A stretch of 39,461 bases of DNA from Ignavibacteria bacterium (GTDB taxonomy: Bacteria > Bacteroidota > Ignavibacteria > Ignavibacteriales > Ignavibacteriaceae): positions 1-39,461 of the forward strand of contig JAUXVN010000060.1 in assembly GCA_030684555.1 (NCBI GenBank), written 5' to 3'. A program made the translations under genes and the position numbers. The notes below the pieces were generated by a model that searched no databases, was not told where the DNA came from, and was given only the letters and a program-made list of their open reading frames with translations. This document shows positions 15,385-39,232 of this stretch, piece after piece. Numbering within the stretch: the stretch's first letter is position 1; each line of letters begins with the position of its first letter.

Positions 15385-16298
15385 TGGGTAAGAAAGCATT
15401 TTTATTTCCGGGTCAAGGTTCTCAATATGTCGGAATGGCTCAAGATCTTTTCGAAAATTCCGTTGAAGCAAAAGAGATGATTAAAACCGCAGACAGTGTT
15501 CTCGGAGTTAACTTATCTCATGTAATGTTTTATGGTCCTGAGGAAAGTTTAAGACAAACTGAAAACACACAGCCTGCAATTTTTATACATTCTGTTATTC
15601 TTGCAAGTTTAATTCGAAGACTTAATATAGAAGGCGCTGCCGGCCATTCACTCGGTGAATATTCAGCACTTGTTGCATCAGGAGCAATTCAATATTACGA
15701 TGCTGTACAATTAGTAAGATTTAGAGGTAAAGGGATGCAGCAAGCCGGAATAGATAATCCAGGTACGATGGCTGCTGTTGTCGGTTTAACTCCCGAAGCT
15801 GTTGAATCTGTTTGTAAAGATGCTTCCGAAGTTGGAATTGTTCAGTGTGCTAACTTTAATTCACCGGGACAAATTGTTATCTCAGGATCGGTTGATGGTG
15901 TTCGTAAAGGAATGGAATTAGCAAAACTAAGTGGAGCAAAACTTGTAAAAGAATTAGTGGTCAGCGGTGCCTTTCATTCACCTTTAATGCAGTCAGCAAA
16001 AGACCTTTTAAAAGAAGAGCTTAATAAAACAAATATTTATGACGCCCGCTTTCCGGTTTATGCAAACGTAACTGCGAAACCTGTAACAGATAAAAATGAA
16101 ATTAAAGAATTATTGTTTCAACAAGTAACTTCTCCGGTAAGATGGGAAGAGACTATTGTTAATATGATAAATGACGGCTTCGATGAATTTTATGAAGTTG
16201 GTCCGGGAAAAGTTTTACAGGGTTTGGTCAAAAGGATTAATCCGAATGTTACTTGTTTCGGTATTGATAAATATACCGATGTAGAAAGGTTTATTTAA
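15384..16298 (+). CDS. fabD: Malonyl-CoA:ACP transacylase (FabD)
   Basis: Loads malonyl onto acyl carrier protein. 304 residues with N-terminal FPGQGSQYVGM, nucleophile S89 in GHSLGEYSAL, and catalytic H198 in GAFHSPLM. Overlaps fabH and the following DUF3109 gene by one base each (TAATG), so translation is coupled. Confidence 0.97.
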   Translation: MGKKAFLFPGQGSQYVGMAQDLFENSVEAKEMIKTADSVLGVNLSHVMFYGPEESLRQTENTQPAIFIHSVILASLIRRLNIEGAAGHSLGEYSALVASGAIQYYDAVQLVRFRGKGMQQAGIDNPGTMAAVVGLTPEAVESVCKDASEVGIVQCANFNSPGQIVISGSVDGVRKGMELAKLSGAKLVKELVVSGAFHSPLMQSAKDLLKEELNKTNIYDARFPVYANVTAKPVTDKNEIKELLFQQVTSPVRWEETIVNMINDGFDEFYEVGPGKVLQGLVKRINPNVTCFGIDKYTDVERFI

Positions 16299-16885
16299 TG
16301 ACAGAAGAATTTACAAAAGAGATAAATGGAATTAAAATTGATCCGATTATCTTTACATTTCCATTTGCATGTAAATGTAATGGTGAGTGCTGCAACTACG
16401 GTGTTTATACCGATAAAAAAGAAGCTGAAATGATTTTATCAATTCAAGATAAAGTCAAAACAATGATGGATGATTCACAATCATTAGATGTAAATGCCTG
16501 GTTTGAAGCTCCTGAGGAAGATGAAGATTTTGATTCAGGTGTTGCTGTTGGAACACAGATTATAAACGGCAAGTGTACATTCTTAGATAAAAATGGATTA
16601 TGTTCCTTACAAAAATTGGCTTACTTTGAGAATGAGAATCCTTGGAAGTATAAACCGTTATATTGCATACTGTTTCCACTAACAATTTGGAATGGTGCAC
16701 TTACGGTTGACGATGAACATATTGATCGTCTTCATCATTGCAATAAATTTCCGATTTCAGAATCCACTATGGTTGATTATTGTAAAGATGAACTAATTCA
16801 TTTTCTTGGTGAATCAGGATATAATGAATTAATTGAATACAAAAATGAATATCTTTCGAATCAAATTAAGAAAGAAATTGAATGA
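16298..16885 (+). CDS. DUF3109 / YkgJ-like cysteine-rich protein
   Basis: 195 residues without a signal peptide. The N-terminal CKCNGECCNYG (C25, C27, C31, C32), a middle KCTFLDKNGLCSL, then YCILFPLTIW and HHCNKF follow the layout of DUF3109, a cluster of conserved cysteines thought to chelate zinc or iron. Function unknown. It is embedded between fabD and fabG with one-base and four-base overlaps, so it is co-translated with fatty-acid synthesis enzymes. That suggests a link to lipid metabolism or acyl-carrier modification, by inference only. Confidence 0.82.
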   Translation: MTEEFTKEINGIKIDPIIFTFPFACKCNGECCNYGVYTDKKEAEMILSIQDKVKTMMDDSQSLDVNAWFEAPEEDEDFDSGVAVGTQIINGKCTFLDKNGLCSLQKLAYFENENPWKYKPLYCILFPLTIWNGALTVDDEHIDRLHHCNKFPISESTMVDYCKDELIHFLGESGYNELIEYKNEYLSNQIKKEIE

Positions 16886-29709: not shown

Positions 29710-29907
29710 ATGAATCGAATAAAAGACGTTTTAGAACAGAAGGGAATTAAACAAAAATGGTTGGCTGAGCAATTAGGCAAGAGTTATAATATGGTAAACT
29801 CTTATGCCCAAAACAGACGCCAACCAAGTTTAGAGGACTTGTACAAGATTGCTGAAATCCTTGATGTAGAAATCAAAGAATTATTAATTGAAAGAAAAAC
29901 GCAATAA
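29710..29907 (+). CDS. XRE-family helix-turn-helix regulator
   Basis: 65 residues, a single HTH of the Cro/CI type: KGIKQKWLAEQLGKSYNMVN then YAQNRRQPSLEDLYKIAEIL. No effector or protease domain. One-base overlap (TAATG) with the ATPase gene, so it is the first gene of a three-gene operon and most likely the operon's own repressor. Confidence 0.9.
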   Translation: MNRIKDVLEQKGIKQKWLAEQLGKSYNMVNSYAQNRRQPSLEDLYKIAEILDVEIKELLIERKTQ

Positions 29908-32525
29908 TGGAAAACGAAACCAAAAATATTTTTGGAAATGGAGCGATATGGCTTCGGGCTGATTTCCATATGCATACAAAAGCAGATTATGAATTTGACA
30001 AAAAGGGATTTGATGAAAATAATTTTTTCCGACTGTATGTTGAGAAACTAATACAACAGAATATCAATGTTGGAGTTATTACGAATCACAATAAATTTGA
30101 TAGAAATGAATTTGTTGCCCTAAGAAAGAAAGCAATCAAAGAAGGTATTGGATTATTTGCTGGAGTTGAATTTTCTCTAAAAGAAGGAATTCACATTTTA
30201 GTTGTTTTTGATGATAAATGGTATCAGTGTGAAACAGACAATATCAACAAGTTTTTGGAAAATGCTTTTTATGGTATAGCTAACTATGACAAACCTAATT
30301 ACCCAAATTCGAACTTCAATCTAAAAGAAACGGTAGAAGCGTTAGACAAAATCGGACACGATTACTTTATTGTTTTGGCTCACATTGACGACACCAATGG
30401 TTTATTCACGGAATTGAGAGGTAGAACTCAAGAAGATTTTGTAAAGCAAGAATCATTCAACAAAGTTTTGGCTGTTCAAAAAAGTGCAAATCTTGAAAAT
30501 TACAACAAACTTTGTCTGTGGTTAAATAGAAAGAGTAAAATTGCTTGTGTTGAAGGTTCAGACAATGCTTATGGAGGCATTGATACTATTGGGAAAGGTA
30601 AGGTTACTTATATAAAAATAGGTGACTTTAATTTTGAAGCATTAACATTTGCATTATCTGACAGCGAATACAGGGTTTCACCGAAAGACAAACCCGAAAT
30701 AAAAAATTCTTACATTAAATCAATTGCATTTGAAGGTGGTTTATTAGAGGGAACAAAAATTGATTTTTCTCCTGAACTTAACAATTTAATCGGAATTAGG
30801 GGAAGTGGAAAATCATCTTTATTGGAAGTTTTACGTTATGTTCTTGGTATTTATCTTCCAGTTAATGCTGCTGACCCTGATTATAAAAATTCATTAGTAA
30901 CCCGTTCAATGGGAAGTGGAGGAAAAGCCATAGTTAACATAGTGAACAAGCAAAATGAAGAATACATGATAGAAAAACTGTATGGTCAAAAAGAGGATAT
31001 CTACAAAAACAACCTATTACAAACTGGAATTTCTATTGATGCGACTGGTTTTCAATCTCCTATTTATTTTGGGCAAAAAGACCTTTCAAACAAAGGTAAA
31101 GATTTTGAAGGAGATTTGATACAAAGGTTAATTGGAACAAGATTGAAAGGAGTTCAAGTTAAAATTGAGCAAAAGAAAAGAGAGGTTGAAAATATTATTT
31201 CGGAATTAAAAAAACTTCAAAACTTAAAAGATTTAAAAAGAGATACAGAGGCTCAAATAAAAAATTCACAACATCAGCTTAATTTTTTCAAGGAAAAAGG
31301 TGTTGAAGACAAATTAAGACAACAAACACTTTTTGATTCAGACATTTCAAAAATGGTTCAAGCAGAATCAACTGTCAGAAGTTATTTAAGCGAATTGGCA
31401 TCTTTAATTTCTAATCATGATTATTTTTTTCAACAAGAAATTACTGGTTCAGAAATTAATAAAGAATTATTTGAAGAAGCAAAGACAATCATTCAAGAAT
31501 TAAAAATTGAGTTTGAAAAACTAAAAACTATACAAAAGAATTCTATACTAAGTCAGCAAAAATTAAAAGAGGTTATCGCAAAAATTAATACTAAGAAAGA
31601 AGGATTAAAAGAAGAGTTTGCTAAGATTAAACGAGAAACAAATACTGACACTATTAACCCCGATAATTTTCTGAATCTGAATAGGCAAATTGAAACAGCA
31701 CTTTTGAAATTAAAGGAAATCGAAAAATCAGAAAAAAGAAGAAGCGATTTACAAACTAATTTATTAGAACGTCTTACTGAACTTGATAACCTATGGCTTG
31801 AAGAATATAATGTTCTTAATAAAGAGGTAAAAAGAATCAATGAAGCAGAAAGTAAAATTTCAATTGAAGTTGAATTCAAAGGCAGGAGGGATAAACTCAC
31901 CGACAAGATGAAACAGGTTTTTAGAGGCAGCGGTATTCGGGAAACAGCTTATCAAGAGATTGAAGCTAACTATAAAGACTTCATTCAGATTTACAGAGAC
32001 GGCAGTAAATTATCTGACATTTTAAATGAAAATCATGTAGTTGATTTTAAAAGAAGGTTTTCTGAAAATCTGGAAGAATTGCTCACTTTCAAAGTAGAAA
32101 ATAAAATAGTGATTCAATACAACGGAAAATCATTAGACAAACATTCTCTTGGGCAAAGAGCATCAGCATTAATTCTTTTCTTATTAGCTCAAAGGGAAAA
32201 TGACGTATTGATAATTGACCAACCAGAAGATGATTTAGATAATCAAACCATCTATGATGAAGTAATAAAAGAATTAAAAAAAATTAAGGGTAATATGCAA
32301 TTTATCTTTGCAACCCATAACGCCAATATCCCTGTGCTTGGTGATAGTGAAAAAGTTGTTTCGTGCAGCTATGATGAAAAGAAAATCACAGTACATTCAG
32401 GCACTATTGATAATCACCAGACACAACGGTTTATTGTTGACATAATGGAAGGTGGAGACGAGGCATTTAACCGCAGGAAAAATATTTACAGTATTTGGAA
32501 CATTGAAAAAACAAAATCACTATGA
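29907..32525 (+). CDS. PHP-domain + SMC/RecF-like ATPase (TrlF-type)
   Basis: 872 residues. N-terminal PHP phosphoesterase domain (about 1-260): HMHT (H21, H23), TNHN at 59-62, E88, H159 and D219. Two usual metal ligands differ (Asp to Asn at 60; His to Ala at 221), so activity is uncertain. Then Walker A GIRGSGKSS at 296-304, a long coiled-coil section (about 400-690), and the ABC-type head LGQRAS (748-753) with Walker B IIDQPEDDLDN (about 769-779) and ATHNAN. This is the TrlF-like layout: a sensor/nuclease-like PHP fused to a RecF/Rad50-style ATPase. Such proteins sit in defence or repair loci. It overlaps the next gene by ATGA. Confidence 0.82.
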   Translation: MENETKNIFGNGAIWLRADFHMHTKADYEFDKKGFDENNFFRLYVEKLIQQNINVGVITNHNKFDRNEFVALRKKAIKEGIGLFAGVEFSLKEGIHILVVFDDKWYQCETDNINKFLENAFYGIANYDKPNYPNSNFNLKETVEALDKIGHDYFIVLAHIDDTNGLFTELRGRTQEDFVKQESFNKVLAVQKSANLENYNKLCLWLNRKSKIACVEGSDNAYGGIDTIGKGKVTYIKIGDFNFEALTFALSDSEYRVSPKDKPEIKNSYIKSIAFEGGLLEGTKIDFSPELNNLIGIRGSGKSSLLEVLRYVLGIYLPVNAADPDYKNSLVTRSMGSGGKAIVNIVNKQNEEYMIEKLYGQKEDIYKNNLLQTGISIDATGFQSPIYFGQKDLSNKGKDFEGDLIQRLIGTRLKGVQVKIEQKKREVENIISELKKLQNLKDLKRDTEAQIKNSQHQLNFFKEKGVEDKLRQQTLFDSDISKMVQAESTVRSYLSELASLISNHDYFFQQEITGSEINKELFEEAKTIIQELKIEFEKLKTIQKNSILSQQKLKEVIAKINTKKEGLKEEFAKIKRETNTDTINPDNFLNLNRQIETALLKLKEIEKSEKRRSDLQTNLLERLTELDNLWLEEYNVLNKEVKRINEAESKISIEVEFKGRRDKLTDKMKQVFRGSGIRETAYQEIEANYKDFIQIYRDGSKLSDILNENHVVDFKRRFSENLEELLTFKVENKIVIQYNGKSLDKHSLGQRASALILFLLAQRENDVLIIDQPEDDLDNQTIYDEVIKELKKIKGNMQFIFATHNANIPVLGDSEKVVSCSYDEKKITVHSGTIDNHQTQRFIVDIMEGGDEAFNRRKNIYSIWNIEKTKSL

Positions 32526-33685
32526 ACGCATTAGAATTACTGGATATAATTAGCGATAAAGAAACAAGCGCAGTACAGTTTAAAAGAGAAATTACTCATA
32601 ATGACTCGATGGCAGCGGAAATTATTGCAATGGCAAATTCTTTGGGTGGATTGATTTTGCTTGGAGTAGTTGATAAAACAGGAGATATTGTTGGTGTAGA
32701 TTTAAATAGTAAAATTAATGAACGAATTGCGAACATCGCGACCAATAATGTTAAGCCTCCAATTTACATTCAGACTGAAATTGTTACCATTGAGAAAGAA
32801 GTCCCATCGAAAATTCTTGTTGTCCATGTTCCTCACAATCCAAGCCAAATTTATAAAGATAACAATGGAGCAATTTGGGTTAAACAAGGGTCAGATAAAA
32901 GAAGGATAACTGATGATTCTGAAATCCTACGGTTATACCAAAGAAGTGGAAATTTATTTGCTGATGAAATGCCTGTTTATAATGCATCGGTTGATGATAT
33001 TAATGAGAATACTTTTCGGGAATATTTTAAAAAACTTAGAGATAGAACAATAGAGGAAGAAGGATTAACTTATGAAAAGGCTTTGCAGGCAAAACGGGTA
33101 TTACTGAAAGGAAATATTTCGTTGGGAGGTTTGTTGTTTTTTGGCAATCAACCGCAATTCTTTAAAACATCTTTTTGCATTAAAGCGGTTTCATTTTTTG
33201 GAAATGATTTAAGCGGATTAGACTATAGGGAAAGTATTGATATTGAAGGAACTATACCGGAAATGTTTGAAAGAGGAATTAAATTTTTTGAATCCAATTT
33301 ACAGCATACCCAGCAAGGACAAAGTTTTAATTCGATTGGAAAACTTGAAATATCAAGAATTGCAATTGAAGAATTGTTGCAAAACGCATTATTGCACAGG
33401 GATTATTTTAAAAATTCACCCGTTAGATTGATGGTTTTTGACAATAGGATTGAGATTATCAGTCCGGGAAAACTTCCGAATAGCTTAACGGTTGAAGAAC
33501 TAAAATATAGCAACCCTGTTCCTCGAAACAATCTTTTAATCGCATATGCAAAAGATTCGATGCTATTTCGTGGATATGGAACAGGTATAAGCAGGGCTTA
33601 TGCTGAACAGCCAAATATTGAATTAATTAATGACATAGAAGGTGAACAATTCAAAGTCATAATTCCAAGACCAGAAAAGAAATGA
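32522..33685 (+). CDS. AlbA/Schlafen-type ATP-binding protein
   Basis: 387 residues. N-terminal AlbA_2 (Schlafen-core-like) domain: E-T-S-x-x-Q-F-K-R at 14-22 and ANSLGGLILLGVVD at 38-51, then DPS-like and GxxW-like segments. C-terminal GHKL-type ATP-binding fold: EELLQNALLHRDY at 283-295 and RGYGTGISRA near the end. Members are annotated as RNA-binding or ATP-dependent DNA helicase-related regulators and often accompany defence genes. It is coupled to the ATPase gene by a 4-base overlap, so the two proteins probably work together. Confidence 0.85.
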   Translation: MNALELLDIISDKETSAVQFKREITHNDSMAAEIIAMANSLGGLILLGVVDKTGDIVGVDLNSKINERIANIATNNVKPPIYIQTEIVTIEKEVPSKILVVHVPHNPSQIYKDNNGAIWVKQGSDKRRITDDSEILRLYQRSGNLFADEMPVYNASVDDINENTFREYFKKLRDRTIEEEGLTYEKALQAKRVLLKGNISLGGLLFFGNQPQFFKTSFCIKAVSFFGNDLSGLDYRESIDIEGTIPEMFERGIKFFESNLQHTQQGQSFNSIGKLEISRIAIEELLQNALLHRDYFKNSPVRLMVFDNRIEIISPGKLPNSLTVEELKYSNPVPRNNLLIAYAKDSMLFRGYGTGISRAYAEQPNIELINDIEGEQFKVIIPRPEKK

Positions 33686-33889: not shown

Positions 33890-34453
33890 ATGCAGAAAAA
33901 TTATTTCACAGACAAGAGCTTTGACCGAATTGACACGCTGATAATAGGCGAGTATGAAAACTGCATTTTCAACAGTTGCGATTTTTCCAACAACAACCTT
34001 TCCGAATTTATCTTCATTGACTGCACTTTTATTGGGTGTAATTTCAGTTTGGCAAAACTCAACCAAACAGCGCTTCGGGGGATAAAATTTAACGACTGTA
34101 AAATGTTGGGACTTCGGTTTGACACCTGCAACGAGTTTGGACTCTCTTTTTCGTTTGACGGCTGTCAACTAAATCACTCTTCATTTTACAAAACGAAAAT
34201 CAAAAAGACAGTTTTTAAAAATTCAGAGTTACAAGAAACAGACTTTGCAGAAGCCGATCTTACAAGTTCCGTCTTTGACAACTGTAATCTGACACAAGCA
34301 ATTTTTGACCACACGATACTTGAAAAAGCCGATTTTCGGACTTCATATAATTATTCCATTAACCCTGAAATTAACCGAATAAAAAAAGCAAGATTTTCAA
34401 TTTTAGGCGTTTCTGGGCTTTTAGACAAATATGATATAGAAATAGAGAAATGA
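33890..34453 (+). CDS. Pentapeptide-repeat protein
   Basis: 187 residues. From about residue 20 to 155 there is a run of five-residue repeats with central F/L/C, such as CDFSN, CTFIG, CNFSL, TDFAE, ADLTS and CNLTQ, giving a right-handed beta-helix. Qnr-like members shield gyrase from inhibitors; most others have no known role. The codon choice is less AT-biased than that of the flanking genes, which suggests import. No signal peptide. A REP-like palindrome follows the stop by 18 bases. Confidence 0.88.
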   Translation: MQKNYFTDKSFDRIDTLIIGEYENCIFNSCDFSNNNLSEFIFIDCTFIGCNFSLAKLNQTALRGIKFNDCKMLGLRFDTCNEFGLSFSFDGCQLNHSSFYKTKIKKTVFKNSELQETDFAEADLTSSVFDNCNLTQAIFDHTILEKADFRTSYNYSINPEINRIKKARFSILGVSGLLDKYDIEIEK

Positions 34454-35389: not shown

Positions 35390-36856
35390 TTAGGTAGTCT
35401 GATTTATTCTCAAAATTGCAGAGTTAATTCTTTTTAGAACTTCCTCTTTCCCTAAAATATAAAGTAAATCAAACATTCCTGCTCCGGTACTTTGCCCCGA
35501 GACGGCTAACCTTAATGGATGAATCAGTTTTCCTTTACCTATATTCAATTCTAAGGCAACTTTTGCCAATGCAATCTCATAATCTTCTCTCGTAGGCAAG
35601 TTTAATATTGAGAATACATCATTCAATAATTTTAATTGGCCTGGTGTTTCGGGATTCCAATTTTTCGTAATTGCCGCTTCATCAAATTCATTTGGTTGTT
35701 CATAAAAGTATTTACAGTTAGTTATAAACTCTTTTACAAATGAAACCCGTTCTCTCATTACTTCAATAATTGAAAGAAGATAATCATCACTCAGATTTAC
35801 ATTATTGTACTCAGATTCATTTAGTTCGAGTTTTAATAAAGTAAGTAACTCATCAGCAGATTTTTTTCTCAAGTGTTCTGCATTCAGCCATTTAAGTTTT
35901 TCAAGGTCAAAGACGGCTCCCGATTTATTTACTCTCTCAAGAGAAAACTTTTCAATTAGCGATTCCATCTGATAGAACTCAACATCATCACCGGCGTTCC
36001 ATCCAAGTAGAGCAACAAAATTTACAAGTGCTTCCTTAAGGTAGCCCTTACCTCTATAATCTTCAACTGCTACATCTCCCTGACGCTTACTTAATTTTGA
36101 GCGATCAGCATTTAATAGAAGCGGAAGATGAGCAAAAAGAGGTTTCTCCCATTCGAAGAAGTTGTATAATAAAATATGTTTTGGAGTAGAGGAGAGCCAC
36201 TCTTCACCTCTAATTACATGTGTTATTTTCATTTGGTGATCGTCAACTACATTCGCAAGATGGTAAGTTGGGTAACCATCACTTTTTATAAGTACCTGAT
36301 CATCAATATTGTTGCTGTCGAACTCAACATCACCGCGGATAATGTCATTAAAATTAACTTTTAAATTTGAAGGGACATTCAATCTGATTACATAAGGTAG
36401 ATTATTGTTTAAATTTTCAGCAACCGTTTCTTTAGATAATGAGCAACAATGCTTGTCGTATTTTGCCTGTGGTAGTTTTAATCTCTGTTGTTCTTCACGT
36501 AACTTTTCTAACCGATCCGGAGTACAAAAACAGTAATAAGCATGTCCATTATCTATAAGCTGCAAAGCGTGTTTATGGTAGAGGTATAGTCTTTCGGATT
36601 GTAAATAAGGTTCGAAGTCTCCACCAACTTGAGGTCCTTCATCAAAATTTAAACCACACCATTTAAGCGAATCAATTAGATTATCAATTGCTCCTTCAAC
36701 AAATCGGTTTCGGTCAGTATCTTCAATACGAAGAATGAAAGTTCCATTGTTTTTTTTTGCGAAAAGATAATTATAAAGAGCGGTTCGTAACCCGCCAACG
36801 TGTAAGTAACCGGTAGGACTCGGTGCAAACCGGACTCGTGGAGTTTCAGAGATCAT
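35390..36856 (-). CDS. gltX: Glutamyl-tRNA synthetase
   Basis: Charges tRNA-Glu, also feeding tetrapyrrole synthesis where the C5 route exists. 488 residues, class I. The HIGH motif reads HVGG (H19-G22) in APSPTGYLHVGGLRTALYN, and KMSKS reads KLSKR at 254-258. A Cys pair near residue 109 (YCFC) with a CC further on resembles a zinc site of bacterial enzymes. 27 bases downstream of the hybrid sensor gene and co-oriented, so the two may share a transcript. Confidence 0.96.
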   Translation of the reverse strand: MISETPRVRFAPSPTGYLHVGGLRTALYNYLFAKKNNGTFILRIEDTDRNRFVEGAIDNLIDSLKWCGLNFDEGPQVGGDFEPYLQSERLYLYHKHALQLIDNGHAYYCFCTPDRLEKLREEQQRLKLPQAKYDKHCCSLSKETVAENLNNNLPYVIRLNVPSNLKVNFNDIIRGDVEFDSNNIDDQVLIKSDGYPTYHLANVVDDHQMKITHVIRGEEWLSSTPKHILLYNFFEWEKPLFAHLPLLLNADRSKLSKRQGDVAVEDYRGKGYLKEALVNFVALLGWNAGDDVEFYQMESLIEKFSLERVNKSGAVFDLEKLKWLNAEHLRKKSADELLTLLKLELNESEYNNVNLSDDYLLSIIEVMRERVSFVKEFITNCKYFYEQPNEFDEAAITKNWNPETPGQLKLLNDVFSILNLPTREDYEIALAKVALELNIGKGKLIHPLRLAVSGQSTGAGMFDLLYILGKEEVLKRINSAILRINQTT

Positions 36857-36883: not shown

Positions 36884-39232
36884 TTAGTTCAAAACATTTG
36901 AAGTGTAATACTTGACCTTTTCAATAAATTCCTGGCTGTCAATTGGTTTTGGGACGTAATCTGTTGCACCGGCTTCAAGACACTTTTCTCGATCCCCCTT
37001 CATGGCAAAGGCTGTTAGTGCAATAATAGGGGTCTCATTGTATTCGGGCATTTTTCGAATTCGTTCTGTAGCCTCAAATCCATTCATAACCGGCATTTGC
37101 ATGTCCATGAGAATAATATCGAATTTTTGTTTCTTTACTTGTTCGACTGCCTCTGCGCCATTCTCAACAACCACAATTGATGAAAAGTTATTTTTCTTTA
37201 GAAGTCTTGTTACGATTATCTGTGAGTGTTTATAATCCTCTACTAATAAGATTTTAGGAGTGTCAACCTGCTTTGCTGCGATTTCAGGAGGAGTAGGTTC
37301 ATCGTATCTGTTTATCATTGCATTTATTGTTTGTGCAAGATCTTCAATATTTGTACTCCGTTTACTTAACAATTCAGTAAACAATCCATCAATCTTTTTA
37401 AGATCATCTTCGTAATTTTCTTTTCCTGTATAAATCATAATAGGAAGATTAGCGAATTTAGGATCGGATTTAATCATTTTAATTAATTCGAATCCATTAA
37501 CTTCAGGCATATCTAAATCAACTATCGCTAAATCGAGATCAACATTTTGTATCAGCGACATCACCTTTGATGAACGAGATTCGGCAACAGCATTGTAACC
37601 AACAGATTCAATAGCTTCTTTAACCAGGTTTAATGTTGGTATATCATCATCTACACAAAGGACATTTGAATCTTTTTTAAGCTTATATGAAGTAAGTACT
37701 TCAACTAAATCTTTGTACTTGATAGGTTTAACAAAATACTCTACTGCTCCCATCATAAACGCCTTCTGTTGTTCTGCTTCAACTGAGCAAACTATAACAG
37801 GAGTATTTTTTGTGCTTTTATTCTCACGAATTTTTTTAAGTAACTCTAAGCCATTGTAATCCGGTAAAACTATATCCGTGATGATGGATAAAAAGATTTC
37901 TTTTTCTAACAATTTGAGAGCAGCTTCTCCCGTATTTACAATAGTCGGTTCATAACCCCATTTGTTTAAATAATTGCTTAACAATTTTGACGTTGCATAA
38001 TCGTCTTCAATAACCAATACTTTATTTTTTTGACCGGCTTTTGGAAGAGCACTAATTTGTTCTTCAATTGCAGTCAGTAATTTCGATTTAACTGTAAAAT
38101 TAAATTGGGTTCCTCTTCCCATTGAACTTGTAACATCAATTTGTCCGTCGAGCAGTGAAATATAACGTTTGACAAGTGCAAGCCCAAGAACAGTAGTATT
38201 ACTATTCTTTTTCTGTTGAAGGTTAGCATAACTTGATGGATGGAATAAGTCTTTAATCTTACTTGAAGGAATAACCAAACCTGTTGCGTTGATCTTAACA
38301 CCAAGTTTATTCTTACTTTGAAAAACTGCAATACTTATTTGACTGGAATCGACAGACGTGATAACATATCCAAGAATGTTAGTTATAACAATTTTTAATT
38401 TTTGAATGTCAGTCTTGATAATGTCGGTTAGTGTTTTATCAATTTCAGTATTGAAAGAATATTTCGATTTATCAATTTTTTCACTGACTAATTGAATTAC
38501 TTCTTGAAGAAGAACTTTTATATCTACACCACTCGAAGATATTGTAGATATTCCGTTATCAACTTTTGCTATATCAATTAAATCATTAATAAGAGTTAAT
38601 AATTTTTGTGCATTATCTTTAAGAGATTGGACGTATTCATTTTGAGTTGAAGTAAGTTTATCATCACTAAGAAGGGAAGCAAAACCTACGATGCTATTTG
38701 TAGGAGTACGCAATTCATTTGCAATTTCTGAAAGTAGTGAATGGATCGATAAATCCTTTAGAGGAATTTCACCTTTCCAGTCTGAAATCAGATTGCCTAT
38801 AAATTCACCAACAGTATTCAAAATTTCTTTATCTTTTTGAGTAAACGAATTTTTCTGCGAAATTTTAAGTAAGTATCTTTCTGTGGGGGAAGTTTTAATT
38901 AATTGACAACCTTCGTAAAGAAGATAATCGGTTGACTGGATTCCACATTCAGAATTAGATATGAATTCGAGGTGTTCGGTTTCGGCATTTACCAAATTAC
39001 ATTTTGCACAGCTAACAACCGAGTTTGGGGTAAAAGATTTTTTAACAGAAGAAGATTTTCCGATAACCACTAATTGGTTGTTATCATTTATCTTAAATAA
39101 AATCGCCGATTGGAAACCAAATTCATCAACTAAAAGTTCGCATAGCTTGTCACTATAGCCGGGGTCATTCTGGTCTAGCGATTTTCGTAATGAATTAAGG
39201 GTACTAAATAATTTTAACGATCCTGTTTGCAT
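36884..39232 (-). CDS. Hybrid sensor protein with three receivers, likely pseudokinase
   Basis: 782 residues, no membrane segment, so cytosolic. Order: GAF-like N-domain (about 1-150) with C75-x2-C78, C96 and C109; dimerisation helices with ANELRTPTNS at 171-180; a GHKL-like fold (about 270-382); then three receivers with acceptor Asp at D453, D572 and D710. The dimerisation motif should read HELRTP, but the His is Asn172. The N-box NLLSNA reads NILGYV (285-290), the usual DxGxG reads ATGLV, and the G2 box GLGLA reads VLGLA. Kinase activity is therefore doubtful. Receiver sites are intact, so it probably integrates phosphoryl groups from other kinases. Confidence 0.85.
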   Translation of the reverse strand: MQTGSLKLFSTLNSLRKSLDQNDPGYSDKLCELLVDEFGFQSAILFKINDNNQLVVIGKSSSVKKSFTPNSVVSCAKCNLVNAETEHLEFISNSECGIQSTDYLLYEGCQLIKTSPTERYLLKISQKNSFTQKDKEILNTVGEFIGNLISDWKGEIPLKDLSIHSLLSEIANELRTPTNSIVGFASLLSDDKLTSTQNEYVQSLKDNAQKLLTLINDLIDIAKVDNGISTISSSGVDIKVLLQEVIQLVSEKIDKSKYSFNTEIDKTLTDIIKTDIQKLKIVITNILGYVITSVDSSQISIAVFQSKNKLGVKINATGLVIPSSKIKDLFHPSSYANLQQKKNSNTTVLGLALVKRYISLLDGQIDVTSSMGRGTQFNFTVKSKLLTAIEEQISALPKAGQKNKVLVIEDDYATSKLLSNYLNKWGYEPTIVNTGEAALKLLEKEIFLSIITDIVLPDYNGLELLKKIRENKSTKNTPVIVCSVEAEQQKAFMMGAVEYFVKPIKYKDLVEVLTSYKLKKDSNVLCVDDDIPTLNLVKEAIESVGYNAVAESRSSKVMSLIQNVDLDLAIVDLDMPEVNGFELIKMIKSDPKFANLPIMIYTGKENYEDDLKKIDGLFTELLSKRSTNIEDLAQTINAMINRYDEPTPPEIAAKQVDTPKILLVEDYKHSQIIVTRLLKKNNFSSIVVVENGAEAVEQVKKQKFDIILMDMQMPVMNGFEATERIRKMPEYNETPIIALTAFAMKGDREKCLEAGATDYVPKPIDSQEFIEKVKYYTSNVLN

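Follow-up and report, generated by a model that had tools for sequence, protein, structure and literature searches.

A hybrid histidine kinase without its phospho-acceptor histidine in the Ignavibacteriales, and its three conserved receivers

What does a hybrid histidine kinase do once its catalytic residues are gone and its receivers are intact? The question is raised by a 782-aa protein encoded near the end of the window, as we call the whole 39,461-nucleotide stretch of Ignavibacteria bacterium DNA that was analysed (contig JAUXVN010000060.1 of assembly GCA_030684555.1). A reading of the sequence alone had described it as a hybrid sensor that lacks the acceptor His, and had suggested a signal-collecting or scaffold protein rather than a kinase. 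From the comparison of its orthologues, we conclude that the protein probably collects signals made by other kinases. The features concerned are the following (window coordinates):

36884..39232, minus strand: pseudo-histidine-kinase hybrid, whole open reading frame, 782 aa, ATG start
38759..39232, minus strand: N-terminal domain (aa 1-158), GAF fold by AlphaFold2, Foldseek and VIA-align, with Cys75, Cys78, Cys96 and Cys109
38546..38746, minus strand: HisKA/DHp domain (aa 163-229), Asn172 at the phospho-acceptor site, E173-x-x-T176 kept
38081..38419, minus strand: HATPase_c/CA domain (aa 272-384), N, G1 and G2 boxes eroded
37691..38032, minus strand: receiver 1 (aa 401-514), Asp453
37313..37669, minus strand: receiver 2 (aa 522-640), Asp572
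36899..37255, minus strand: receiver 3 (aa 660-778), Asp710; the best-conserved domain, its helix alpha1 (668-681) nearly invariant
35390..36856, minus strand: presumed gltX, glutamyl-tRNA synthetase, 27 bp downstream of the pseudokinase on the same strand

Domain layout and catalytic residues

The Pfam matches above cut-off are HisKA at 166-227 (50.1 bits), HATPase_c at 275-383 (43.5 bits) and three Response_reg stretches; the fold of the core is thus still recognisable, though its catalytic residues are lost. In the full-length predicted model the domains are good and their mutual arrangement is unsure (pLDDT 81, pTM 0.39). Within its own genome the next best match to the protein scores 177 bits, against 1677 for the protein itself.

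Nine positions serve to judge catalysis: the acceptor His, two N-box Asn, and the motifs Asp-x-Gly-x-Gly and Gly-x-Gly-x-Gly. Aligned to active kinases, the focal protein is canonical at three of them. Residues 171-177 read ANELRTP, placing Asn172 at the phospho-acceptor position, as the sequence-only reading had it. Asn285, Gly318 and Gly350 are kept; Tyr289 stands for the second N-box Asn, Ala316 for the Asp, and Val320, Thr346 and Val348 for Gly. The N-box and both glycine boxes are therefore eroded, as had been claimed, rather than absent, and by our count three of the eight ATP-site positions are kept. All three receivers retain their acid pocket, Asp, Ser/Thr and Lys, the Asp residues being the predicted D453, D572 and D710. 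Measured against a canonical hybrid kinase, the protein possesses receivers with their Asp and lacks both the acceptor His and intact N, G1 and G2 boxes. By sequence only, it matches the published description of a pseudo-histidine kinase, namely a histidine kinase fold with at least one catalytic function lost (PMC12632262), a class that is recognised in that source and, for DivL, in PMC4211667. The protein fits this class, and by their defining features it is neither a RetS nor a DivL.

The N-terminal domain is of a different kind. The AlphaFold2 model of residues 1-158 (pLDDT 89) has a predicted GAF fold, matching 4g3v in Foldseek (E 4.9e-5, probability 1.00) and 3trc in VIA-align (Z 12.9, 144 residues aligned, rmsd 3.5). 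In a Pfam search with 62 members at E 1, 31 families matched and 25 are listed, none of these a GAF family; weak matches of the N-terminal part to Nairovirus NSm, seen in 7 of the 62 with a best E of 0.004, were judged to be due to chance. Its four Cys are widely retained (Cys75 in 126 of 140 orthologue rows, Cys78 in 128 of 140, Cys96 in 135 of 141 and Cys109 in 124 of 137); of the 141 rows with a letter at one or more of these sites, 120 have the full set. A metal site, an Fe-S cluster or a thiol switch is plausible here. A profile of the domain gave one match each in 14 of 119 genomes of the class, all 14 belonging to the order; the remaining 105 gave none (85 match-less genomes were counted without being named individually).

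Orthologues and the erosion of the core

Orthologues are present in 146 of the 164 genomes of the host order, its own genome included, some of the matches being cut by contig ends. Among genomes at least 90% complete and with at most 5% contamination the protein is found in 103 of 109; the 18 genomes of the order with no match include six that are at least 90% complete. The named contigs that carry orthologues are assigned to Ignavibacteriaceae, Ignavibacterium, Melioribacteraceae and unclassified 'Bacteroidetes' MAGs, which places the lineage in Ignavibacteriota. A search of the class outside the order at E 1e-75 gave as its only matches five kinases of about 1066 aa (286-305 bits) belonging to a family that we call f13; in the class search the 177 match-less genomes were counted and not named one by one. 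Searches of an open-access library gave no paper on this protein and nothing on the lineage together with a pseudokinase; the papers they gave on the lineage and hybrid histidine kinases look unrelated, judging by their listing.

Two sets of loci were compared. The first consists of 176 fetched loci with a frame matching the query at E 1e-30, divided into 92 orthologue loci (77 exact-distinct frames) and 84 non-orthologous loci, for which residues were compared initially on 24 hand-picked rows and afterwards on all 84. Domain conservation, dN/dS, the tree and the gltX counts refer to this first set only. The second set added 79 loci, seven of them identical to or contained in earlier rows, for a total of 149 rows; 18 of the 149 have frames shorter than 760 aa, mostly at contig ends. 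Two proteins are cut inside contigs, L045 (the second half of the receivers) and L274 (the first two thirds of the protein); in L264 a stop interrupts the match. Structure alignments used 62 of the 77 first-set rows, leaving out fragments (L042, L045, L174, L175 and L176, the last being the receivers-only protein of genome G058), rows cut by contig ends (L119, L140), divergent rows (L044, L142, L173) and near-duplicates (L122, L123, L135, L138, L162). The tree was built by a quick method from receiver columns only and holds 72 orthologues and seven outgroup rows; 28 of its 76 inner branches are well supported, and its root is weak.

None of the 145 orthologues of the enlarged set carries all nine catalytic residues, the best score being seven, in six rows; likewise, none of the 74 first-set rows with an ATP domain reaches nine. 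The non-orthologous kinases from the same searches score nine in 83 of 84 cases and eight in the remaining one, and all 84 have the His. Its absence from 112 of 143 orthologues, against 0 of these 84 and against 0.9% of the HisKA domains in a published survey (722 of 76,471; PMC12632262), is thus no matter of chance. Position 172 is occupied in the 143 orthologues by 16 different residues: Asn in 38, His in 31, Gln in 30, Ser in 11, Leu in 6, Pro in 4, Asp in 4, Gly and Glu in 3 each, six residues twice and one once. This variety rules out Asn172 as a selected functional residue. The sequence-only reading had proposed to ask of orthologues whether Asn172 is conserved, hence functional, or unique, hence decaying; it is neither, since an orthologue of the same genus has it too and the order at large does not conserve it.

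The ATP site has gone further at some positions than at others. Asp316 is kept in 95 of 141 orthologues, N285 in 75 of 145 and the N-box Asn289 in 25 of 145, and the ATP-lid Gly346 in none of 144. As Gly346 is missing from every row and the His survives in some, the ATP lid was most likely lost before the His, to judge from the present-day sequences. On the receiver-column tree of the first set, whose root is uncertain, at least 7 changes between His and not-His and at least 28 changes of the residue at 172 are needed. A loss-only model requires 16 losses of the His; if the lone His deep in family f2 (L130) is taken as a chance regain, seven losses suffice, one of them covering 49 rows. Selection could be gauged in three of ten pairs, those with dS below 0.9, the remaining seven having an overall dS of at least 1.0 or being not computable. 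In these three pairs dN/dS was 0.03, 0.19 and 0.06 for HisKA, 0.00, 0.09 and 0.13 for the HATPase, and 0.00 to 0.10 for the receivers; by these ratios the core, where retained, is under purifying selection.

Two genomes mark the end points of the erosion. G058 encodes, at L176:2351-3532, a 394-aa open reading frame with an ATG start and three receivers only, matching residues 385-779 with 70% identity. It lies in the middle of its contig, upstream of gltX, and within the 5 kb read no piece of the N-terminal domain or of the core was seen. Two of its genus mates (G326, G327) have a full-length protein with Gln172, and a third has no match. In G345 (L284:3532-5775) a 748-aa frame followed by gltX on the same strand still has all four Cys and all three receivers; Pfam at E 1 finds neither HisKA nor HATPase_c in it, and the family profile skips positions 119-235, where the DHp is expected. 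Every key receiver residue is kept in both proteins. An assembly fault could possibly lie behind these forms, both genomes being drafts; if they are real, the receivers can apparently do without the core. A core that is lost or unrecognisable beside receivers that persist points to the receivers as the working part. Together with the lack of any fully catalytic orthologue, this supports the initial suggestion that the protein would collect signals rather than act as a kinase.

Receivers, an active paralogue and the gltX neighbourhood

Conservation of the protein is concentrated in its receivers. D453 is kept in 136 of 146 orthologue rows (receiver 1 has lost its Asp in the other 10), D572 in 144 of 144 and D710 in 141 of 142. 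In the first set, columns at least 95% identical number 1 of 67 in HisKA, 1 of 113 in the HATPase domain, 42 of 114 in receiver 1, 45 of 119 in receiver 2 and 74 of 119 in receiver 3. An active paralogue with the layout HK-REC-REC-REC (the L178 family), present in many of the same genomes, serves as a control: all 30 of its rows score nine of nine, three of these rows being also among the 84 non-orthologous kinases. Mean top-residue frequencies in 27 pseudokinase rows are 0.71 for HisKA, 0.58 for HATPase and 0.85, 0.80 and 0.90 for receivers 1 to 3; the 30 paralogue rows, from overlapping and not identical genomes, give 0.83, 0.68, 0.59, 0.59 and 0.72, respectively. The conservation pattern is reversed between the two proteins. 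At each of the 14 positions of helix alpha1 of receiver 3 (668-681), 96-99% of 73 pseudokinase rows agree, against 33 to 100% per position in the paralogue. It is on alpha1 that a kinase or an Hpt domain classically docks to a response regulator, and its near-invariance here therefore suggests that receiver 3 likely has a fixed partner.

The L178 family and the f13 kinases (frames of 1065-1073 aa) share with the pseudokinase the core and the order of three receivers, and can be aligned to it over about 165-773; they differ in having all nine catalytic residues and other N-terminal parts. The paralogue exceeds its threshold in 43 of 59 genomes only, and hence is not a strict partner. Its receivers 1 and 2 are themselves eroded in many genomes, among them the copy of the host genome (L198, G000:C130) and several of L192-L208, L192 being scored as eroded solely because an Asn aligns at the receiver-1 Asp position. 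Such copies have an intact kinase and an intact receiver 3, the mirror image of the pseudokinase. By raw count, the pseudokinase has N289 in 7 of 15 genomes where the paralogue's receivers are intact, and in 2 of 13 where they are eroded. With only three independent pairs on supported branches, there is no support for the ATP site of the pseudokinase eroding together with paralogue receivers 1 and 2.

Hpt domains were found in all 21 genomes searched, in part within open frames about 242-261 aa long. The f13 protein L164 has a C-terminal segment that, read by eye, looks Hpt-like. In the host genome a 253-aa frame (G000:C109:38047-38604) combines a receiver match with a weak, sub-cut-off Hpt match, and Hpt-bearing frames of about this length are present elsewhere in the order. 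This frame is a possible relay partner.

Downstream of the pseudokinase lies a gene that we take by its sequence to be gltX. It follows on the same strand at 64 of the 74 first-set loci with room for it and is lacking at 10; at 62 of the 64 the distance to where the tblastn match begins is at most 266 bp, and three of the 77 loci leave no room to see it. Upstream genes vary among the five long loci read, and the stretches fetched around seven f13- and paralogue-type kinases hold no gltX. Pseudokinase and gltX likely form an operon.

The window contains other genes worth recording. Two overlapping genes at 29907-33685 encode an 872-aa AAA/SMC-like ATPase (AAA_21; PADLOC Ppl, 6.6e-37) and a 387-aa SLFN_AlbA_2 protein that ends in HATPase_c_4; by their appearance the two are a candidate pair for anti-phage defence. 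At 33890-34453 lies the gene of a 187-aa pentapeptide-repeat protein. A DUF3109 protein with several Cys (16298-16885) is situated inside an apparent fatty-acid synthesis cluster.

Readings of the protein and their meaning

We hold with moderate confidence that the protein is a three-receiver hub on a dead kinase, with receivers phosphorylated in trans by other kinases and a core reduced to an optional regulator. The pseudokinase itself would not autophosphorylate. Other kinases would phosphorylate its receivers, above all receiver 3 with its near-invariant docking helix, and the active HK-REC-REC-REC paralogue of the same genomes is a candidate donor; that erosion of the paralogue's receivers does not track erosion of the pseudokinase on independent branches counts against this reading, as do the 10 rows without the receiver-1 Asp and the 18 genomes of the order with no match. 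Where retained, the dead core probably tunes the hub by dimerising, by docking partners or by dephosphorylating the receivers, and the four-Cys GAF-like domain may in turn control the core through redox state, a metal or the like. A phosphatase role of some sort is possible for the core, since 74 of the 112 His-less orthologues have the motif [E/D]xx[T/N] and since the acceptor His is described as contributing to, without being essential for, HisKA phosphatase activity (PMC12632262).

Among the closest known systems is RetS, the Pseudomonas aeruginosa hybrid sensor that restrains GacS. According to PMC5992135 its HATPase is degenerate, lacks the G boxes and does not support autophosphorylation; one of its receivers takes phosphoryl groups from GacS, its HExxT motif dephosphorylates GacS, and GacS autophosphorylation is inhibited. 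The hub corresponds to the first of these three mechanisms, which needs only a receiver, the other two needing the core. The two proteins share a degenerate HATPase, the kept E-x-x-T (His of HExxT is Asn here, E173 and T176 being present), the kept C-terminal receivers and a similar predicted core fold. As described there, RetS keeps its acceptor His and has two receivers, whereas the present family has mostly lost the His and has three; it carries a four-Cys GAF-like domain as its sensor and can lose the core altogether.

A restrainer of the RetS kind is accordingly the main alternative, which we consider possible and distinctly less probable than the hub. Its dead core would heterodimerise with active kinases, block their autophosphorylation and dephosphorylate their receivers through E-x-x-T/N, the receivers of the pseudokinase itself being secondary. 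That RetS is described as doing all of this with a degenerate HATPase (PMC5992135) speaks for it, as do the purifying selection on the core and the likeness of the model to RetS, whose structures make up 15 of the 50 matches listed and include the one with the highest TMt among these (7n0e_B, 0.84, a 195-residue chain, rank 22 by E-value). By E-value, however, the best match is not RetS but the active kinase ShkA (6qrj, 1.0e-24), followed by other kinases, and the motif that would do the dephosphorylating, kept in most His-less orthologues, is absent from 38 of the 112. The core is moreover the least conserved half of the protein. Because it erodes, and in G058 and G345 disappears or becomes unrecognisable beside kept receivers, we favour the hub and rank a restrainer acting mainly through its core as the rival.

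A weak or unusual kinase, which still autophosphorylates or phosphorylates another residue, seems to us improbable. Weak activity is conceivable in three orthologues (L014, L118, L228), which have the His, Asp316 and both N-box Asn, and L035 retains seven of the eight ATP-site residues, though with Pro at 172; the 31 orthologues with His and the frequent survival of Asp316 and N285 point the same way. Against this stand the scarcity of N289, the universal loss of G346 and the three canonical positions of the focal protein. A substitute acceptor in the DHp can be dismissed, no His column there being conserved at 95% or more (only H669, in receiver 3, is). Decay or a sequencing error in this one genome, suggested by the acceptor codon AAT, one base off a His codon, is ruled out for practical purposes: close orthologues with His172 and intact ATP boxes would have spoken for it, and the same-genus orthologue has the same Asn and the same score of three of nine, orthologues extend through the order, receiver 3 has a mean top-residue frequency of 0.87 in the first set, and dN/dS is low.

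Other known systems resemble the hub in part. DivL of Caulobacter also lacks a phosphorylatable His and keeps the fold, its structure 4q20 being among the structural matches listed, and is proposed in PMC4211667 to read the state of a receiver rather than to phosphorylate it. As that source presents it, DivL has a conserved Tyr and apparently all its ATP boxes, whereas here the residue drifts, the boxes are eroded and three receivers are fused to the core. The chloroplast sensor kinase CSK/Hik2 joins a GAF domain with an Fe-S cluster to a kinase core, and its green-lineage forms have lost the acceptor His (PMC6949291). A single cluster-binding Cys is identified for it, in place of a CxxC...C...C pattern, and fused receivers are absent from the description given there. 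PMC11481889 mentions a Caulobacter hybrid that lacks the His and has its Asp. The combination that the sequence-only reading had called uncommon is indeed so, and with RetS (PMC5992135) and this hybrid as forerunners it is not unprecedented.

A wider scenario, which we offer as speculative and would not expect to hold in all its parts, is that of a kinase caught at every stage on the way to a receiver hub. The ATP lid would have been lost first and the His many times thereafter; the core would then have been scrambled, as in G345, or deleted along with the sensor, as in G058, the three receivers and gltX being kept throughout. Where the protein is full-length, the hub would be steered by its four-Cys GAF-like domain, acting as a metal- or redox-binding sensor; being expressed together with gltX would couple what the hub integrates to the supply of Glu-tRNA.

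What is new here is that one orthologue extends through an order, that its loss is graded and ends in receivers alone, that three receivers are retained, and that it has a four-Cys GAF-like domain and is linked with gltX. Pseudo-histidine kinases are usually met singly; the Ignavibacteriales present, within one order, a series that runs from seven of nine catalytic residues to no kinase core at all. In this series one can test in which order a histidine kinase loses its parts, whether a dead core matters, and whether fused receivers alone may act as an integrator for several kinases.
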